From: Geothrix terrae
GTDB lineage: Bacteria > Acidobacteriota > Holophagae > Holophagales > Holophagaceae
Length of the DNA: 64,000 nt
Direction of reading: 5' to 3'
Assembly: GCF_022808775.1 (NCBI RefSeq)
Contig: NZ_JAKZLA010000002.1
Location: forward strand, 310,001 to 374,000
Under the pieces are notes generated by a model. That model was not told the origin of the DNA and searched no databases. It saw only the letters and a program-made list of their open reading frames with translations. Below, one piece after another: positions 51,197-64,000 of this stretch (positions within the stretch are counted from its first letter, which is position 1; each line of letters opens with the position of its first letter). The translations under genes and the position numbers were made by a program.

Positions 51197-52198
51197 CTAG
51201 TGCACTTTGACCACGACCTTCCCTTTCGCGCGCCCGGTTTCGACATAACCCAGCGCTTGTCTGGTTTCCTCGAACGGGAAGACCCGGTCGATCACCGGCC
51301 GGATGTGACCGGCTTCGATCAATCGGGTGATCTCGCCCAGTTGTTGGCCGCTGGCAGTCATAAAGTGGAAGGAGTAGCTGGCGCCGCTGCGCCTGGCCGC
51401 TTTCCGGATGCCGTAACTGAGCAGCCGCATCACCAGGCTGAGAAAGCCGTTCATGCCACGCAGCTTGGCGAAATCGGGGTCCGGCGGACCGGCGATGCCA
51501 ATCAGCTTTCCGCCTGGCTTGAGCACGCTCAGCGATCTTTTCAGCGTGTCCCCGCCCTGCGTGTCAAGCACCAGGTCGTAGCCTTTCAGCTTGGTCGAGA
51601 AATCGTCCTTCTTGTAATCGATGACGATGTCGGCGCCCAGGTCCTTCAGCATGTCGGCATTGGCCTCGCTGGCGGTGGTGGCGACCGTGGCGCCGAAATA
51701 CTTGGCCAACTGAATCGCGATCGTGCCGACGCCGCCCGAACCAGCGTGGATCAACACCTTCTGGCCCTTCTTCAGCCCGCCTTTTTCCACCAGCGTTTGC
51801 CATGCGGTCAGTGTCACCAACGGGATGGACGCGGCCTCCTCCATCGACAGGTTGGCCGGCTTGAGGGCCAGCGAATCTTCTTTGATCGCGATGAATTCGG
51901 CAAAGGCGCCGATACGATCGTCGTCTGGCCGCGCGTAGACCTCATCGCCTGCCTTGAAGCGGCGCACACGTGGGCCGACACGCACCACCACGCCGGCCAG
52001 ATCCGTGCCCAGGATCAGCGGCATTTTGTATGGCAACAGCAGCTTGAATTCGCCAGCCCGGATTTTATTGTCCACTGGATTGACGCCCGCAGCATGAATC
52101 TGCACGAGGACATCATCGTCGCGTAGCGTCGGCTCGGGCAGCTCGCCCAACCTGAGCACGTCAGATTTGCCGTAACGGTTGATGAAGAATGCCTTCAT
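51197..52198 (-). CDS. NADP-dependent quinone/zinc-type oxidoreductase
   Basis: A 333-residue MDR-superfamily enzyme starting MKAFFINRYGKSDVLRLGE after AGGAGCC. Features: GVNPVDNKIRAGEF, the catalytic-domain TDLAGVV, and the NADPH-binding VLIHAGSGGVGTIAIQLAKYFGA. No structural zinc cysteines are present, so it belongs to the quinone-oxidoreductase branch. It is the last gene of a three-gene cassette (TetR, SDR, this gene), all on the minus strand with lower GC and different codon use from the flanks. Confidence 0.88.
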   Translation of the reverse strand: MKAFFINRYGKSDVLRLGELPEPTLRDDDVLVQIHAAGVNPVDNKIRAGEFKLLLPYKMPLILGTDLAGVVVRVGPRVRRFKAGDEVYARPDDDRIGAFAEFIAIKEDSLALKPANLSMEEAASIPLVTLTAWQTLVEKGGLKKGQKVLIHAGSGGVGTIAIQLAKYFGATVATTASEANADMLKDLGADIVIDYKKDDFSTKLKGYDLVLDTQGGDTLKRSLSVLKPGGKLIGIAGPPDPDFAKLRGMNGFLSLVMRLLSYGIRKAARRSGASYSFHFMTASGQQLGEITRLIEAGHIRPVIDRVFPFEETRQALGYVETGRAKGKVVVKVH

Positions 52199-52220
52199 GT
52201 ATGGCTCCTGTTCTCGGACA

Positions 52221-53075
52221 TCACCGCGCCGAGGCCGTGGCGCGGCTGCGCACAGCTGGCTGGGAATCAAGTCTCAAGTCCTTGCGGACACCAGCTTCGA
52301 CCAGCGCGGCGGGCGCGAATCGACGCAAGAAGCGCAACCGGCCGGCCAACGCTCCGGAGGTGTAGCGCACCTTCGGCGTCGCCGCCAGCGCCACCCGCAC
52401 CACTGTTTCGGCCACCACGCCCGGGCCATCCGCACTTTCCAGTGCTTCCTTCACGCGCCGATCCAGTCCTGCGCGCAGGTCGCGGTACTCGTCGAGCGCC
52501 TCATCGGGCTGCATCTGGTTGGCGTCGAACGGTGACTTGATGTAGGCCGGTTCGACCAGCGACACACGAATGCCCTGGGTACGCAGCTCTTGGTCCAGTG
52601 ATTCTGAATAACCCTCCAGTGCATGCTTGGTGGCCGAATACAGGGCCATGTACGGCATCGGCACAAAACCCAATACCGAGCTGATGTTGATGATGCGTCC
52701 GCTCCCCCGCTTTCGCATGTGCGGCACGACGGCGCGGATCATTCGGACGGTACCGAAGAAGTTGGTATCGAAGATCGCTTGCGCCTGCCGGATCGAGCTC
52801 TCCTCGGCCGCGGCGGGCGCGACGCCAAACCCGGCGTTGTTGACCAACAGATCGATACGCCCTTCAAGCCGCAGCACTTCGTTGACAGCGGCCGCCACAG
52901 ATTCGTCGCTGGTCACATCCAGCGCCAGCATCTCAAATGTGCGCTTGCCGCTTTGCCCTTGCGCGCCGCGGCGGCTGGTCCCGTACACCTTGTAACCCAC
53001 CCTGGCGAGCTGCTCAGCGGTGGCTTCGCCGATACCCGATGACGCTCCGGTCACGATCGCGATCTTGCTGTTCAT
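52221..53075 (-). CDS. Short-chain dehydrogenase/reductase
   Basis: A 284-residue classical SDR starting MNSKIAIVTGASSGIGEA. The cofactor motif TGASSGIG, NNAG, the catalytic Ser in INISSV and the Tyr-x3-Lys in YSATKHALEGY are all present. The arginine in TSRRG after the second strand suggests NADPH preference. It is preceded by the TetR operator and followed after 22 bp by the quinone oxidoreductase start, so the two form an operon. Confidence 0.9.
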   Translation of the reverse strand: MNSKIAIVTGASSGIGEATAEQLARVGYKVYGTSRRGAQGQSGKRTFEMLALDVTSDESVAAAVNEVLRLEGRIDLLVNNAGFGVAPAAAEESSIRQAQAIFDTNFFGTVRMIRAVVPHMRKRGSGRIINISSVLGFVPMPYMALYSATKHALEGYSESLDQELRTQGIRVSLVEPAYIKSPFDANQMQPDEALDEYRDLRAGLDRRVKEALESADGPGVVAETVVRVALAATPKVRYTSGALAGRLRFLRRFAPAALVEAGVRKDLRLDSQPAVRSRATASAR

Positions 53076-53097
53076 GGGGGCCCTCCTCATGGACATT

Positions 53098-53119
53098 AAA
53101 TATGATGATCGTCATATTT
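53098..53119. promoter_or_regulatory. TetR-type operator before the SDR gene
   Basis: AAATATGA and TCATATTT form an 8-bp-arm palindrome with a TGATCG centre, 22 bp before the SDR ATG. The inner 14-mer ATGATGATCGTCAT matches 11 of 14 positions of ATGATGGACATCAT at the start of the TetR gene. Confidence 0.6.
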
Positions 53120-53161
53120 TCAATCAAAATAAATCCAAACCACGAACTGCTTGGCGGGTCT

Positions 53162-53782
53162 TTATTTACCGACCTCTGAAAAATGCTTGAGCGCCGCTTC
53201 GCGCAACGCCTTGGACAGCCTGGGGTCATCGACGGCGCGCGCCACCACCATCGTGCCGACCAACGAACTGACCATGAACATGGCCTGCTCGTGCGCGCCG
53301 GGCGTTCCCCAGTCGGGCAGCTGGCGGGCCACCACATCGATCATCTCCTTGATATGACGCGTGGCCGCCTGCCGCACCTCAGGCGCCTGGCGGTGCATCT
53401 CGGAGCCAAGGGCAGCCACGGGGCAGCCATTCTCAACACCTTCCAGGTGCTGCTGTGACAAATAGGCGCGCATCAGCGCCTGTAGGGACTGCCCCGGCGC
53501 AGCAGCGGCGGCGATGTTGGCCGACCAGTTGACTGCCTCAGAACCAGCGCGGTCGGCCGCTTCGGCCAGCAGCGTTTCGCGCGAGGCGAAATGCGCGTAG
53601 AAGCCGCCATGCGTGAGCCCGGCTTCCTTCATGATATCCGCTACCCCGGTGCCGGCATAACCGCTGCGTCGGATCGCGCGTGCGGCCACCTCGACGATGC
53701 GGTCGTGCGTCACTTCCTTGCGGCTCTGGGTGGCGCGCTTGGCGCCTGGCTTGGCGCTTGGACGGGCGGATTTGATTCGCAT
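53162..53782 (-). CDS. TetR/AcrR-family transcriptional regulator
   Basis: About 206 residues starting MRIKSARPSAKPG; in-frame ATGs 9 and 12 bp upstream lie inside an operator-like palindrome. The N-terminal helix-turn-helix reads GYAGTGVADIMKEAGLTHGGFYAHFASRETLL, the TetR signature. The C-terminal domain contains the TetR_C-like segment GCPVAALGSE. It probably represses the adjacent SDR-quinone oxidoreductase operon and itself. Confidence 0.9.
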   Translation of the reverse strand: MRIKSARPSAKPGAKRATQSRKEVTHDRIVEVAARAIRRSGYAGTGVADIMKEAGLTHGGFYAHFASRETLLAEAADRAGSEAVNWSANIAAAAAPGQSLQALMRAYLSQQHLEGVENGCPVAALGSEMHRQAPEVRQAATRHIKEMIDVVARQLPDWGTPGAHEQAMFMVSSLVGTMVVARAVDDPRLSKALREAALKHFSEVGK

Positions 53783-53794
53783 GATGGACATCAT
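53781..53794. promoter_or_regulatory. Second TetR operator-like palindrome
   Basis: ATGATGGACATCAT overlaps the start region of the TetR gene and resembles the core of the operator before the SDR gene. This points to autoregulation and favours the downstream ATG (53782) as the real start. Confidence 0.45.
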
Positions 53795-53901
53795 ACATTA
53801 ATTTCAACAGAGCATGCGCACCTGCATGCCAAATTGATTGTTTGACGGTCTGCCTTGAGGGACGCGACTCAACACTACCCGTGTGTATCGCTATGTGGCT
53901 C

Positions 53902-53923
53902 CCACTTTGAAAACAGACCCTAG
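53902..53923 (-). repeat. MITE terminal repeat, copy 1
   Basis: CCACTTTGAAAACAGACC followed by CTAG, where the CTA is the (minus-strand) stop codon of the nitroreductase gene. The same terminal repeat occurs three more times (pair at 61097/61416 and hairpin at 62942). Here it is a single end, facing the TetR cassette; no matching left end was found next to 51.2 kb. Confidence 0.7.
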
Positions 53924-54633
53924 TCTTCAACGAATCGCGCGAATTCGGCGACGGGGGCGCGCTCGGTCTCCAGACTGTTCTCCACGGCTGCCGGATCGGC
54001 GAAGCCGAGCGCCATGCCGCAGACCAGCATCTGGTCGGGCCGGAAGGCCAGCTCCTCGGCGATGGCGCGGTGGAACTGGGTGAAGGCGGCCTGAGGGCAG
54101 GTGTGCAGGCCCCGGGCCCGGGCCGCCACCATGATGGCCTCCAGGAACATGCCGTAGTCCAGCCAGCTGCCCACTTGCATGATCCGGTCGATGCTGAAGA
54201 TCAGGCCCACCGGCGCGTCGAAGAAGCGGAAGTTGCGGCCATGCTGCGCGTGCATCCGGGCCTTGTCGGTCTTCTCGATGCCCAGGAGGCCGTAGAGGTC
54301 CCACCCCACCTTGCGACGGCGGTCGAGGTAGGGAGAGACCCACGCCTTGGGGTAGTACTCGTACTCCCGTTCGTGCCGGGCCAGCTCGTCAGGGTCGTCA
54401 TAGATGGCAAGGATGCGGTCGCAGAGGCGGGCCTTGGCGGCGCCCGTCAGCACGTGCACCTGCCAGGGCTGGATGTTGGTGCCGGACGGGGCCCGGGACG
54501 CCACGCGCAGGATGTCCTCCACCACGGCCCGGGGCACGGGCGTGGGCAGGAAGGCGCGCATGGAGCGGCGGCTGGTGATGGCGGCATCGACCACGGCGGT
54601 CTGGGCCTCGGTGGGCGGGTCGAACGGGTTCAC
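53920..54633 (-). CDS. Nitroreductase family protein
   Basis: A 237-residue FMN-dependent nitroreductase from a GTG start with AAGGAG upstream. AAITSRRSMRAFLPTPVP is the N-terminal FMN-binding motif, then ASRAPSGTNIQPWQVHVLTG and the C-terminal LVCGMALGFADP. Family members reduce nitro compounds, quinones or flavins with NAD(P)H. The long upstream open frame to 54762 is not supported. Confidence 0.87.
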   Translation of the reverse strand: MNPFDPPTEAQTAVVDAAITSRRSMRAFLPTPVPRAVVEDILRVASRAPSGTNIQPWQVHVLTGAAKARLCDRILAIYDDPDELARHEREYEYYPKAWVSPYLDRRRKVGWDLYGLLGIEKTDKARMHAQHGRNFRFFDAPVGLIFSIDRIMQVGSWLDYGMFLEAIMVAARARGLHTCPQAAFTQFHRAIAEELAFRPDQMLVCGMALGFADPAAVENSLETERAPVAEFARFVED

Positions 54634-54800
54634 AGGGTCGCTCCTTTGAGGAAGCGTGCGGTGGCGCGGGTGGGGGGCTCGTGCAGCTTCCATCGCCGAT
54701 CCCTCCAGTACATCATCCTCGATCCCATTCCTGGCCAGACATTCGTCTGTATATACAATCAATACCTGGTTCTATCCGTCCCATCCTCCAGGAGCGTCGA

Positions 54801-60185: not shown

Positions 60186-61100
60186 ATGCCCTTCCTGGAC
60201 CTGCCGCCCTGGATCCTCAGCCTCTTCCTGGCCCCCTTCGGCCTGATGATCGGCTCCTTCTGCAACGTGCTGATCCACCGGCTGCCCCAGGAGGCCCCCG
60301 AGGACCGCAACGTGGTGACGAAAGCCAGCCACTGCCCCTCTTGCAAGGCGAAGATCAAGCCATGGCACAACGTGCCCCTCTTCGGCTGGCTGTGGCTCCG
60401 GGGGAAGTGCGCGGCCTGCGGCTGGCGCATCCCCGTCCGCTACCCGCTGGTGGAACTGCTGGGGGGCCTGATCCTGGGCGGGGCCCACTGGCTCTTCCCC
60501 TTCGGGGCGCTCATCTGGTTCAAGGCGGTGATCTGCGCCTATGCGCTGCTGGTGCTGTTCTTCACGGACCTCACGGAGATGATCCTGCCGGACGTCCTGC
60601 AGTTCCCCCTCATGGCCCTGGGCGTGCTCTTCGCCCTGCCGCAGGTGGCCTGGCCGGAGGCGCTCCTGAAGGCCTGGGGCCGCGGCGACACGCTCATCCA
60701 GGCCCTGGCCTTCCACAACGGCCTCCAGCCCGGCCCGGCCTACCGCGGCTTCGAGCCCGCCGTCACCTGGCAGGCCAGCCTCCTGGGCCTGGCCATCGGC
60801 TACGGCGCCCCGGCCCTGCTGAACCAGATCTACAAGGGGATCCGCAAGACCGATGGCCTGGGCATGGGCGACTTCAAGATGCTGGCCTGGCTGGGCGCCT
60901 TCTGGGGTTGGGGCCCCATGCTGGGGATCCTCTTCCTGGGCGCGGGTCTGGGCGCCGCCGTGGGCCTGCCCCTCATGCTCACCCGCCGCTCCGGCGGCCA
61001 GACCATGCTCCCCTTCGGCTGCTTCCTCGCCCTGGCCACTCCCATCGTCGTGTTCTTCGGGCGGGCACTGTGGCTGGGGTACCTGGGCGTGGTGGGCTAG
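60186..61100 (+). CDS. pilD: Type IV prepilin peptidase
   Basis: A 304-residue aspartic membrane peptidase/N-methyltransferase. The N-terminal domain has FGLMIGSFCNVLIHRLP and two zinc-type pairs CPSC...CAAC. The catalytic aspartates are in FTDLTEMILPD and GMGDFKMLAWLG. It cleaves and N-methylates type IV pilin-like proteins. Its stop TAG is part of the CTAG at the left end of an inserted repeat element. Confidence 0.92.
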   Translation: MPFLDLPPWILSLFLAPFGLMIGSFCNVLIHRLPQEAPEDRNVVTKASHCPSCKAKIKPWHNVPLFGWLWLRGKCAACGWRIPVRYPLVELLGGLILGGAHWLFPFGALIWFKAVICAYALLVLFFTDLTEMILPDVLQFPLMALGVLFALPQVAWPEALLKAWGRGDTLIQALAFHNGLQPGPAYRGFEPAVTWQASLLGLAIGYGAPALLNQIYKGIRKTDGLGMGDFKMLAWLGAFWGWGPMLGILFLGAGLGAAVGLPLMLTRRSGGQTMLPFGCFLALATPIVVFFGRALWLGYLGVVG

Positions 61101-61437
61101 GGTCGGTTTTCAAAGTGGGGTGTGGCCGCGCAAGGGCCGCCGCCCAAGTGATGCAAGGAAAGCGACGAAGGCGATAGCGGCACTACCGACGAGGTGCTTG
61201 ACGCAGCATCGCGCCGACGCCGCCCCTTGCCGGTTCCGCCCTCTGCCCGGCGGAAGGCCGGGCAGGAGCAGGCCCCAGGCGGGGCCTGCGATAGGGAGAG
61301 GGGGGCGCCGCCCAGCCGCACCCCTGGCTGCGTTGAGGGCCTCGAACGATGTCCCGCATCGCCCTTCGGCCCCCGCCTTGCCATGCGCGCGGCTGGACGG
61401 CGTCGCGGCTCGCATCCACTTTGAAAACCGACCCTAG
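61097..61437. mobile_element. 341-bp MITE-like element with perfect ~18-bp terminal inverted repeats
   Basis: Left end CTAG then GGTCGGTTTTCAAAGTGG; right end is the exact inverted copy CCACTTTGAAAACCGACC then CTAG. No credible gene lies inside. The CTAG on each side would be a 4-bp target duplication. The termini and CTAG target fit the IS427 group of the IS5 family as I know it, with the transposase deleted. The pilD (plus strand) and MarR (minus strand) stop codons both use the flanking CTAG. Confidence 0.75.
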
Positions 61438-61910
61438 GGCGTCTCCGCGGGCTCGAGGACAATCGCCGCCAGTATCTCCTGCAGGTCCCGGATGCGACCG
61501 GCGCCCACCCGCCGGCCCCAGTCGGCCTCGACGCCGCGGACGAAGGCCCGGACCTCCTTCGTGAAGGCGCGCCCCCGCGCCGTGAGGCGCACGCGGGAGG
61601 CTCGGCGGTCGTCGGGATCCTCCACGCGCTCGGCGTAGCCGACTCGGCACAGGTGGTCGACGAGGGCTCCCATCGACTGCTTCGTGACGCGCGCCGCCTG
61701 GGCCAGCTCCGTCAGGCGGGCCCCTCCAGGCCGGGTCCACAGTGCCTGGATGGCGGCACAGTGGGCGGGCTGGATGTCCGCGTGCCCTGAGGCGGCCAGC
61801 CATCGGACCAGTTCCTGGCCCATGATCTGGTTGGCCAGCCGGAGCAGCGCCCCGAGAAGCGGGCGCTCAGGTGGGTCCGCACGGCGGGTGGAGGATCTGG
61901 GCCTTGACAT
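61434..61910 (-). CDS. MarR-family transcriptional regulator
   Basis: A 158-residue winged-helix regulator: LTELAQAARVTKQSMGALVDHLCRVGYAERVEDPDDRRASRVRLTARG is the MarR helix-turn-helix and wing (D-x-R-D/R). Its C-terminal stop is in the right CTAG of the inserted repeat. It diverges from a VOC-like gene across two operator copies. Confidence 0.9.
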   Translation of the reverse strand: MSRPRSSTRRADPPERPLLGALLRLANQIMGQELVRWLAASGHADIQPAHCAAIQALWTRPGGARLTELAQAARVTKQSMGALVDHLCRVGYAERVEDPDDRRASRVRLTARGRAFTKEVRAFVRGVEADWGRRVGAGRIRDLQEILAAIVLEPAETP

Positions 61911-62491: not shown

Positions 62492-62896
62492 TCAGCGCCC
62501 CTGGCTCAGCTCCATCAGCACGCCGCCGGTCTCCGCGGGGTGGATGAAGGCCACGCGGCAGCCGTGGGCTCCGTTTCTCGGGGCCTGGTCGATCATGCGG
62601 ATGCCCTTGGCCAGGAGCTGGGCCACCGCGGCGTCGATGTCATCCACCTCGAAGCAGACGTGGTGGATGCCGGGGCCGCGCTTGGCTAGGAACTTCCCGA
62701 CGGGGCCCTCGGGATCGGTGCTCTCCAGGAACTCCAGGGTGCTCTCTCCCACGGGGAAGAAGGCCGTCGTCACTTTCTGCTCGGGCACCGCCTCCGTGTG
62801 GTCGGGAGCCATGTCGAAGAGCCGCGCCATGCGGTCCATGGCCTCGTCCAGGCCCGGCGTCGCGATGCCCAGGTGGTTGATGCGCAGCAGTTTCAT
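62492..62896 (-). CDS. mce: Methylmalonyl-CoA epimerase
   Basis: A 134-residue VOC-fold enzyme starting MKLLRINHLGIATPGLDEAM after GGGGAG. The conserved order NHLGIA, EFLESTDPEGPVGKFLAKRGPGIHHVCFEVDD and GVLMELSQ is that of the epimerase that interconverts (2S)- and (2R)-methylmalonyl-CoA in propionate metabolism. Metal ligands are His (NHLG), His (GIHH) and Glu (MELS). Confidence 0.92.
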   Translation of the reverse strand: MKLLRINHLGIATPGLDEAMDRMARLFDMAPDHTEAVPEQKVTTAFFPVGESTLEFLESTDPEGPVGKFLAKRGPGIHHVCFEVDDIDAAVAQLLAKGIRMIDQAPRNGAHGCRVAFIHPAETGGVLMELSQGR

Positions 62897-62941
62897 GCCG
62901 GACTCCCCTGCCCCATTCTCCGGCATCCGCGCAGGGAAGGG

Positions 62942-62999
62942 TTAGGGCCTGTTTTCAAAGTGGGGCGTGGCGGCGCCCCACTTTGAAAACAGACCCTAG
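62942..62999. repeat. MITE hairpin, minimal copy
   Basis: Left arm TAGGGCCTGTTTTCAAAGTG... and right arm are complementary over 25 positions with one mismatch, joined by a 6-base loop (TGGCGG). This is two ends of the same repeat placed head to head, giving about 56 nt of near-perfect palindrome. The right CTAG contains the stop codon of the sensor gene; the left flank reads TTAG. Confidence 0.75.
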
Positions 63000-64000
63000 G
63001 CCGGGGGTAGCTTTCCGGCCCTCGGCGGGAAGACCTCCTTCGCGCAGTCGGGACAGATGCCATGGGTGAACTCGGCGTCGGTGTGCTCGTTCAGGTAGGC
63101 CTCGAGCTGGTTCCAGTAGCCCTTGTCATCCCGGATCTTCTTGCAGTGGCTGCAGATGGGGAGCATGCCACCCAGGGTTTTCACTTCGGCGAGGAGGGCC
63201 TCCAGGCGCGCATGGGCGGCCTGCTGGCGGACCCAAACCCGATGCAGCAGCCAGGAGGCCGCCAGGGTCAGGCAGGTGAAGAGGGCCACCTCCAGGACCT
63301 CCTGGGCCAGGTCCTGCCGCCACTCCGCCAGGACATCCTGATCGGCCAGACCCACCACCACGTAGAAGGGCTGCCCCTCGACCCGGCGGATGGCGAAGGT
63401 GCGCCGGACGCGATCGAAGGGTGTGAGGGCTCGGTAGGTGCCAGCGCCCCGGCCGGATCGCGCGAAGGCCTCGAACTCCGGAGAGACGATCCTCTGGCCG
63501 ATGGCGGTGCCGGCGCTGACGGGCTCCGGGTGGCGGGCGATCAGCTCCAGATCCAGGTCCCGGAGGGCCACGGAGCCGCGCTGCCCCACATCCAGGGCCG
63601 AGAAGGCGCGGTTGAACTGGTCCAGCTCGATGACGGCGTGGGCCATGCCGGCGAAGCTGTGGTCCGGGCGCTCGATGCGCCGCGCCAGGACGATCACCCA
63701 GGTGCCCGTGAGCCGCCCCACCAGGGGCTTGGAGATCACCAACCCAGCGTGGGGATCATCCCTGAGGCGGAGGAAGTGGGCCCGGTCCGACAGGTCGACG
63801 GGGGTGGCCATCCCGGCGCCGAGGCCGCGCACGACCACGCCCCGGGCATTGGTCACCCGCAGGGCCTTCACCTCCGGCACCCGCGCCTGCTGGCGGCCGA
63901 TGAAGGCATCCAGGGCCGCGCCGGCCCGGGCGGGATCCGCGAGCGCGCGCTCGGCCTCGTCCTGCACCGCCCGCAGGGCGAGGTCGGCCTTGCCGAAGGT
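62996..64000 (-). CDS. Sensor protein with PDC/Cache-like domain, 5' end outside window
   Basis: The minus-strand frame is open to the window edge, so the start is missing. The visible part has an extracytoplasmic PDC/Cache-like sensor (ALRVTNARGVVVRGLGA; VDLSDRAHFLRLRDDPHAGLVISKPLVGRLTG), a membrane helix (EVALFTCLTLAASWLLHRVW), a short coiled coil and a C-terminal ICSHCKKIRDDKGYWNQLEAYL... CPDCAKE motif. That cysteine-bearing tail is common at the end of bacterial sensor proteins and its function is not known to me. No kinase or GGDEF domain follows in this frame. Confidence 0.72.
   Translation of the reverse strand, partial: TFGKADLALRAVQDEAERALADPARAGAALDAFIGRQQARVPEVKALRVTNARGVVVRGLGAGMATPVDLSDRAHFLRLRDDPHAGLVISKPLVGRLTGTWVIVLARRIERPDHSFAGMAHAVIELDQFNRAFSALDVGQRGSVALRDLDLELIARHPEPVSAGTAIGQRIVSPEFEAFARSGRGAGTYRALTPFDRVRRTFAIRRVEGQPFYVVVGLADQDVLAEWRQDLAQEVLEVALFTCLTLAASWLLHRVWVRQQAAHARLEALLAEVKTLGGMLPICSHCKKIRDDKGYWNQLEAYLNEHTDAEFTHGICPDCAKEVFPPRAGKLPPA

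Follow-up and report, generated by a model that had tools for sequence, protein, structure and literature searches.

The closest described systems to the element reported here are insertion sequences of the IS5 family and one MITE, and we compare them as far as the accessible parts of the published reports describe them. Elements of the IS427 group of the IS5 family, e.g., IS1248 and ISPaes1 of Paracoccus, are 832-865 bp long and are listed with mostly 2-bp repeats (PMC3281130). MITEPsy1 of Pseudomonas syringae is a 100-bp element with 18-nt inverted repeats that occupies CTAG or YTAA targets, is reported with a 4-nt duplication and is thought to be related to IS5 (PMC3189936).

We analysed a window of 64,000 nucleotides from Geothrix terrae (contig NZ_JAKZLA010000002.1, positions 310,001 to 374,000) that contains a MITE between two convergent genes. 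Like MITEPsy1, this element is small, has IS5-related ends and lies in a CTAG-type target; unlike MITEPsy1, it has a different sequence and is linked to stop codons, a link of which the accessible part of the MITEPsy1 report makes no mention. Unlike members of the IS427 group, it has no transposase. REP- and ERIC-type intergenic palindromes are also short foldback repeats, often found at the 3' ends of genes; the Geothrix MITE family differs from these in that its ends are almost those of an IS5 element and that relatives retain clean empty sites. With E. coli IS5 it has in common a Py-T-A-Pu target of which CTAG is the commonest form, whereas E. coli IS5 is autonomous, makes a 4-bp duplication and is described, in the part of the report available, as inserting mostly upstream of genes under selection (PMC5493358). 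Among the literature titles and abstract openings that we searched, none dealt with the landing of IS5-type elements on stop codons or with a Geothrix MITE.

The pilD/MarR site and its alleles in relatives

The element (copy A; 61100..61434, 335 bp) lies between a pilD-like prepilin peptidase gene on the forward strand (60186..61100; PF06750 and PF01478, A24_N_bact/Peptidase_A24) and a MarR-family regulator gene on the reverse strand (61434..61910; PF12802, MarR_2). Delimited by its inverted ends and by alignment with 27 other copies, it belongs to the larger of two size subfamilies, which is marked by a central block of two GC-rich hairpins (approximately 61231..61304 in the alignment) that is missing in copies of about 270 bp. 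Scans for inverted repeats and for the core of the terminal inverted repeat (TIR) placed the left TIR, GGGTCGGTTTTCAAAGTGG, at 61100..61118 on the forward strand and the same sequence at 61416..61434 on the reverse strand. The repeats are perfect over 22 nt (61097-61118 and 61416-61437) with CTAG outermost on both sides, and over 19 bp when the outer CTA and TAG are left out. With at most three mismatches, the TIR core was counted five times in the window, where shuffled sequence gave an expectation of 0.03. The genome contains 10 occurrences, compared with 2 of the same pattern read backwards. None of the window ORFs, when checked, gave a transposase within 61100-61434.

Each end of the element is bordered by a TA. 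The left one (61098..61099) forms with the first G of the element the TAG stop codon of pilD (61098-61100), and the right one (61435..61436) forms with its last C the stop codon of the MarR gene, a TAG read from the CTA at 61434-61436. When the element and one TA were removed in silico, the flanks joined into ...GGGCTAGGGC..., in which a single CTAG closes both genes. The initial annotation had proposed precisely this, i.e., insertion into one CTAG that served two convergent genes as their stop, to be checked by finding a relative with the empty site. We found the empty site in two relatives, G. campi (GGTGGGCTAGGGCGTT; L053) and G. paludis (GGTGGGCTAGGACCTC; L050), and a tblastn search with both gene ends bore out that in each of them the two stops overlap in one CTAG. 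The accompanying claim, that the insertion came at no coding cost, was likewise supported, with both stops restored and both pilD and the MarR gene intact.

To place these alleles we fetched 46 distinct pilD loci, of which 43 were read at the pilD 3' end. The nearest named relatives by pilD identity were Geothrix paludis SG195 (98%), Geothrix sp. SG200 (96%), G. fermentans (94%) and G. campi SG10 (93%). SG200 (L051) carries at the pilD/MarR site a 34-bp remnant, CTAGGGTCGCGGTTCGCATCCACTTTGAAACCGACCCTAG, which is an internally deleted copy; as this remnant retains a CCGACCC end, a variant found in only 2 of 28 aligned copies, it is most simply the same insertion as that of the window. In G. fermentans and two other relatives checked (L052, L054 and L055) pilD ends in TGA and has no adjoining MarR gene, and these loci therefore have no bearing on the insertion site; the remaining pilD relatives were judged by their printed bases only. 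The MarR gene itself is present in 6 of 47 genomes of the genus, the window genome included. The pilD/MarR site thus provides a clean record of three states (empty, full and decayed) of an insertion that split two genes with a common stop. We also considered precise excision in G. paludis, which proved unneeded: the window strain, G. paludis and SG200 lie at almost equal distances from one another (93% and 92% over 10 kb; locally 93.6, 92.6 and 91.7%) and four-taxon site patterns (25, 23 and 20) single out no branching order, so that the empty allele of G. paludis can be explained by lineage sorting or recombination.

Shared stops were also found at the places of two further copies. A copy in SG200 (L030) lies between genes for a FAD-dependent protein and a TonB_C protein which in G. 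paludis share one CTAG (L258). This was the only shared stop among the three unoccupied loci in which both gene ends were readable, the other two being the window genome, with TGA and a gap, and a weak match. At the site of L032 (genome G015), the two genes share a TTAG in G060 and a CTAA in G001 (L282 and L292), i.e., in 2 of 16 unoccupied readable loci found by tblastn, the rest being spaced from overlap to several hundred bases; spacing between gene ends, then, changes fast. The shared stop looks ancestral at the pilD site, and is possibly so at the other two.

Target duplication and a candidate helper transposase

The initial annotation had regarded the whole CTAG as the duplicated target. 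While a stop was indeed recreated on each side, the duplicated unit itself is better read differently when the family is considered as a whole. TA was found on both sides in 34 of 55 MITE loci and was altered on at least one side in 21. Among the 34 TA-flanked loci there were 24 of the form CTA..TAG, four TTA..TAA, three TTA..TAG, two CTA..TAA and one CTA..TAT. The 24 CTA..TAG loci are uninformative on a 2-bp versus a 4-bp duplication, as are CTAG empty sites, and at the pilD/MarR site alone the two are indistinguishable. A 4-bp duplication would have precedents in the reports available in part, given that E. coli IS5 duplicates Py-T-A-Pu, mostly CTAG (PMC5493358), and that MITEPsy1 has CTAG or YTAA (PMC3189936). 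It predicts, however, equal 4-mers on the two sides, whereas the outer 4-mers were unequal in 10 of the 34 loci, with G as the inside base on the left and C on the right in all 10. A duplicated TA next to a G and a C that belong to the element explains these 10 loci without extra mutations, and IS427-group elements are tabulated, in the accessible part of the source, with mostly 2-bp repeats (PMC3281130). Judging from these flanks, TA is the best reading of the duplicated target, and a TAG is completed on each side by the G and the C of the element; a 4-bp CTAG duplication appears quite improbable.

Other Geothrix genomes contain an IS5-family, IS427-like element of 860-861 bp whose ends are almost those of the MITE, and this is the likely helper. 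Its transposase matches NCBIfam NF033580 (IS5 family transposase, IS5_3; E 8.5e-43), and a protein search of 77 genomes of the family (E <= 1e-15) returned relatives in 12 of them and none in the window genome. Genome G019 has seven paired IS copies of 860-861 bp, all flanked by CTA..TAG and with ends such as GGGCCTGTTTTCAAAGTCA / GGGTGTGTTTTCAAAGTCG; the copy that was examined has two overlapping reading frames. Over 19 positions the TIR of the MITE, GGGYCTGTTTTCAAAGTGG, differs from the full-length G019 IS at two on each side, and at one from a 3.2-kb unit of genome G036 that has GGGTCTGTTTTCAAAGTCG at both ends and contains the 3' portion of an IS5-family transposase. Beyond the terminal ~17 bp the MITE is not visibly like the IS, so that descent from the IS is only a possibility. 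We call the Geothrix IS IS427-like on the basis of its length and of the 2-bp TA duplication as read from the MITE flanks (10 informative of 34 loci), its family being given by the NF033580 match; it resembles the IS427 group, as described in the available part of the source, in size, short inverted repeats, an IS5-family transposase and a 2-bp duplication, which in IS427 applies to most elements (PMC3281130).

The G036 unit (L176, 712-3942) deserves a separate mention: identical MITE/IS ends with TA flanks, and IS5 transposase 3' sequence at both ends (at the right one by DNA reading), surround other genes, and the unit is possibly a composite transposon.

Insertion sequences of the IS630 type also duplicate TA and use CTAG targets, and from the TA target an IS630/Tc1-type MITE had been our first guess. 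DDE_3 has, however, no match in the window genome and matches in 6 of 47 genomes of the genus, and none of 15 DDE_3 loci carries the TIR (at most four mismatches), whereas IS5-family elements do. On these results the first guess was dropped, and an IS630/Tc1-type origin is hardly credible.

The MITE family and its excess at stop codons

Of 93 genomes from the class, 48, including the window genome, gave DNA matches to the MITE (E <= 1e-5); of 77 from the taxonomic family, 33 had a TIR match with no more than one mismatch. Pairing ends that lay 40-1000 bp apart with at most four mismatches per end and six in all yielded 95 pairs, 60 of which were distinct after orthologous or repeated ones had been dropped (55 MITE and five full IS copies, with at least one doubtful pair, L033, retained in the counts). 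Paired MITE copies span 50-456 bp, with main sizes near 270 and 335 bp, the central hairpin block occurring in the latter only, and copies of 50-58 bp, nearly just two ends, were seen in G007, G011, G020, G028 and G033. They are short, have no transposase gene, and are dispersed with clean empty sites, as is characteristic of MITEs. Plasmid relatives of the element amounted to short matches (best E 0.07), none of which covered 80% of it; the exact TIR was not found in viral contigs, and Rfam gave one match far below the gathering score.

The window holds two further traces of the family. Copy B (62945..62996, 52 bp) is barely more than two inverted repeats, its right end contributes the C to the stop codon of a reverse-strand gene (62996-63967), and where it lies G. 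campi and G. paludis have an unbroken CTAG. A lone end, C (53902..53920, reverse strand), abuts the stop codon of a nitroreductase-like gene (53920-54762, reverse strand; named by reading its translation). This lone end borders a stretch (51197-53923) with a GC content near 61-63% that carries TetR-like, short-chain dehydrogenase-like and zinc-oxidoreductase-like genes (also named by reading) and is possibly a foreign cassette by which the other MITE end was removed; G. paludis (G025, L139) has the same lone end and junction.

To quantify the association with stop codons, we scored a site when its TA began, on the joined flanks, an in-frame stop codon closing a gene-like frame, i.e., one of at least 65 open codons that also satisfied a third-position GC rule, genes not being taken from annotation. 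Any in-frame TAR is a stop, and NTAY targets were left out of the count, so the test is independent of the element's G. Five of the 55 MITE loci, with flanks below 250 bp, were dropped. We found a stop codon at 33 of 50 MITE loci, drawn from many genomes, against 40 of 137 CTAG sites in 460.9 kb of the window genome alone (Fisher 8e-6), and two convergent stops at 12 of 50 against 4 of 137 (3e-5). Across five sets of thresholds, p ranged between 2e-7 and 8e-6 when any stop was counted, and between 4e-6 and 4e-5 when only double stops were. Restricted to MITE loci with an intact CTAG, the counts were 20 of 23 at a stop and 8 of 23 at two, a figure that is biased because a stop preserves its own letters, so that 33 of 50 is the fairer one. 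The excess was also present when sites within genes were dropped (20/22 intact-CTAG MITE loci vs. 40/104 CTAG sites, p 7e-6; vs. 35/77 by another gene rule, p 2e-4); by that other rule, 35 of 143 background CTAG sites lay at stops and one at two.

A related IS of another genus (G088) behaved similarly. From 47 protein-search hits, 26 places were sampled, of which 23 had both ends and 22 were distinct; 17 of these 22 lay at stops, compared with 19 of 80 CTAG sites of G088 (p 7e-6), and 17 of 20 against 19 of 68 once in-gene CTAGs were dropped (p 1e-5). Double stops were not significantly more common (3/22 vs. 4/80, p 0.17). The parent-type IS copies of G019 showed no bias, with 1 of 7 at a stop, which either counts against a general stop rule or reflects too few copies.

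As to whether the scored frames are genes, 15 of 20 flank ORFs, hand-picked out of 48, had a Pfam match (E <= 0.01). At all eight intact-CTAG double-stop loci at least one partner had a Pfam hit, and at four both did: pilD/MarR, FAD-depend_C/TonB_C, YdjM/Oxidored_molyb and epimerase/Glyco_transf_9, the epimerase hit being only at the cut-off. The double-stop class does contain false positives, such as copy B, whose left frame is antisense to ORF 62492-62926.

Survival or targeting at stop codons

The account that we consider highly probable as a whole is that an IS5/IS427-type transposase would act in trans on the ends of the non-autonomous MITE, which would enter the TA of the CTAG that pilD and the MarR gene had as their common stop. 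The TA would be doubled; as the element has G as its first base and C as its last, CTAG would again be read on each side, with both stops exactly restored. The insertion would have been neutral and would have persisted, a later internal deletion shrinking the SG200 copy. Family-wide, landing in an in-frame TAR stop would always restore TAG, so that insertions there would be costless and survive, with convergent genes that have one stop site as the safest places; insertions in genes or promoters would be lost and those on stops would stay. What we observed are the empty site, the remnant, the nearly common ends and the excess at stop codons; the helper transposase, neutrality and selection as the cause of that excess are inferred. 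For the pilD/MarR case no new machinery is needed, as ordinary transposition accounts for it. The element would be harmless through its own ends, given that an in-frame TA followed by its G is always a stop.

Survival alone, however, leaves the scant use of intergenic non-stop CTAGs unexplained, which gives room for targeting. The transposase could prefer CTAG at gene 3' ends, e.g., because of convergent transcription, supercoiling or strand opening, and the excess would then reflect insertion. Most G088 IS copies (22 of the 25 set against L297) exceed 99% identity in their aligned parts and are hence probably young, yet 17 of 22 lie in stops, and both for these copies and for the intact-CTAG MITE loci the excess remains without in-gene CTAGs; E. 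coli IS5, too, is reported in the accessible part of its source to favour structurally destabilised sites (PMC5493358). Against targeting stand the G019 copies, with 1 of 7 at stops, and the fact that selection against insertions in promoters and 5' regions would give the same picture, and we hold active targeting to be a tentative alternative to survival, and the less likely of the two. Equally speculative is the broader proposal that Holophagaceae harbour an IS5/IS427-type system for which stop codons are a landing niche, in which the terminal G would restore a TAG at either side, and in which either the machinery or the state of gene-end DNA would steer insertions above all to shared convergent stops. 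The stop-codon excess is the part most worth following, as it turns targeting versus survival into a testable question.

It had also been suggested that the new intergenic DNA could act as a terminator. This found no support: a scan of 60700-61900 returned no intrinsic terminator (GC stem followed by a T-run), and the strong RNA folds that the element forms on both strands (z -8.5 and -10.5) have no T-run after the stem. A domesticated element, kept as a bidirectional terminator or 3' mRNA stabiliser that separates two overlapping convergent transcripts, would fit the strong foldback on both strands and the MITE excess at convergent double stops. Such a role is nevertheless unlikely, considering the empty terminator scan, the decayed SG200 copy, and G. 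paludis and G. campi, which manage without the element. Survival of a neutral insertion remains our preferred reading of the site. Each copy also puts palindromic DNA and apparent small ORFs between genes, by which annotation can be misled.

Some minor observations concern the interior of the element and a locus in another genome. A 45-bp stretch common to six other places in the genome was at first taken for the central hairpin block; it is instead a different internal motif (61337-61381, around GAACGATGTCCCGCATCGCCC), shared with a second foldback repeat family of the window genome (L196-L201) the ends of which are apparently close to TGCCTAACAAAACCCC. At a similar internal place in two different foldback families (L123, L198 and L200) there is a unit of some 42 bp (TCTCGGTATCGCC..GGCGATACGCGAGAC..ACTGATATCTG), as if it were itself mobile. 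Finally, in G015 a MITE occupies the stop of a gltB-type gene, and a MITE-like end is present at the stop codon of this gene in G063 (L288).
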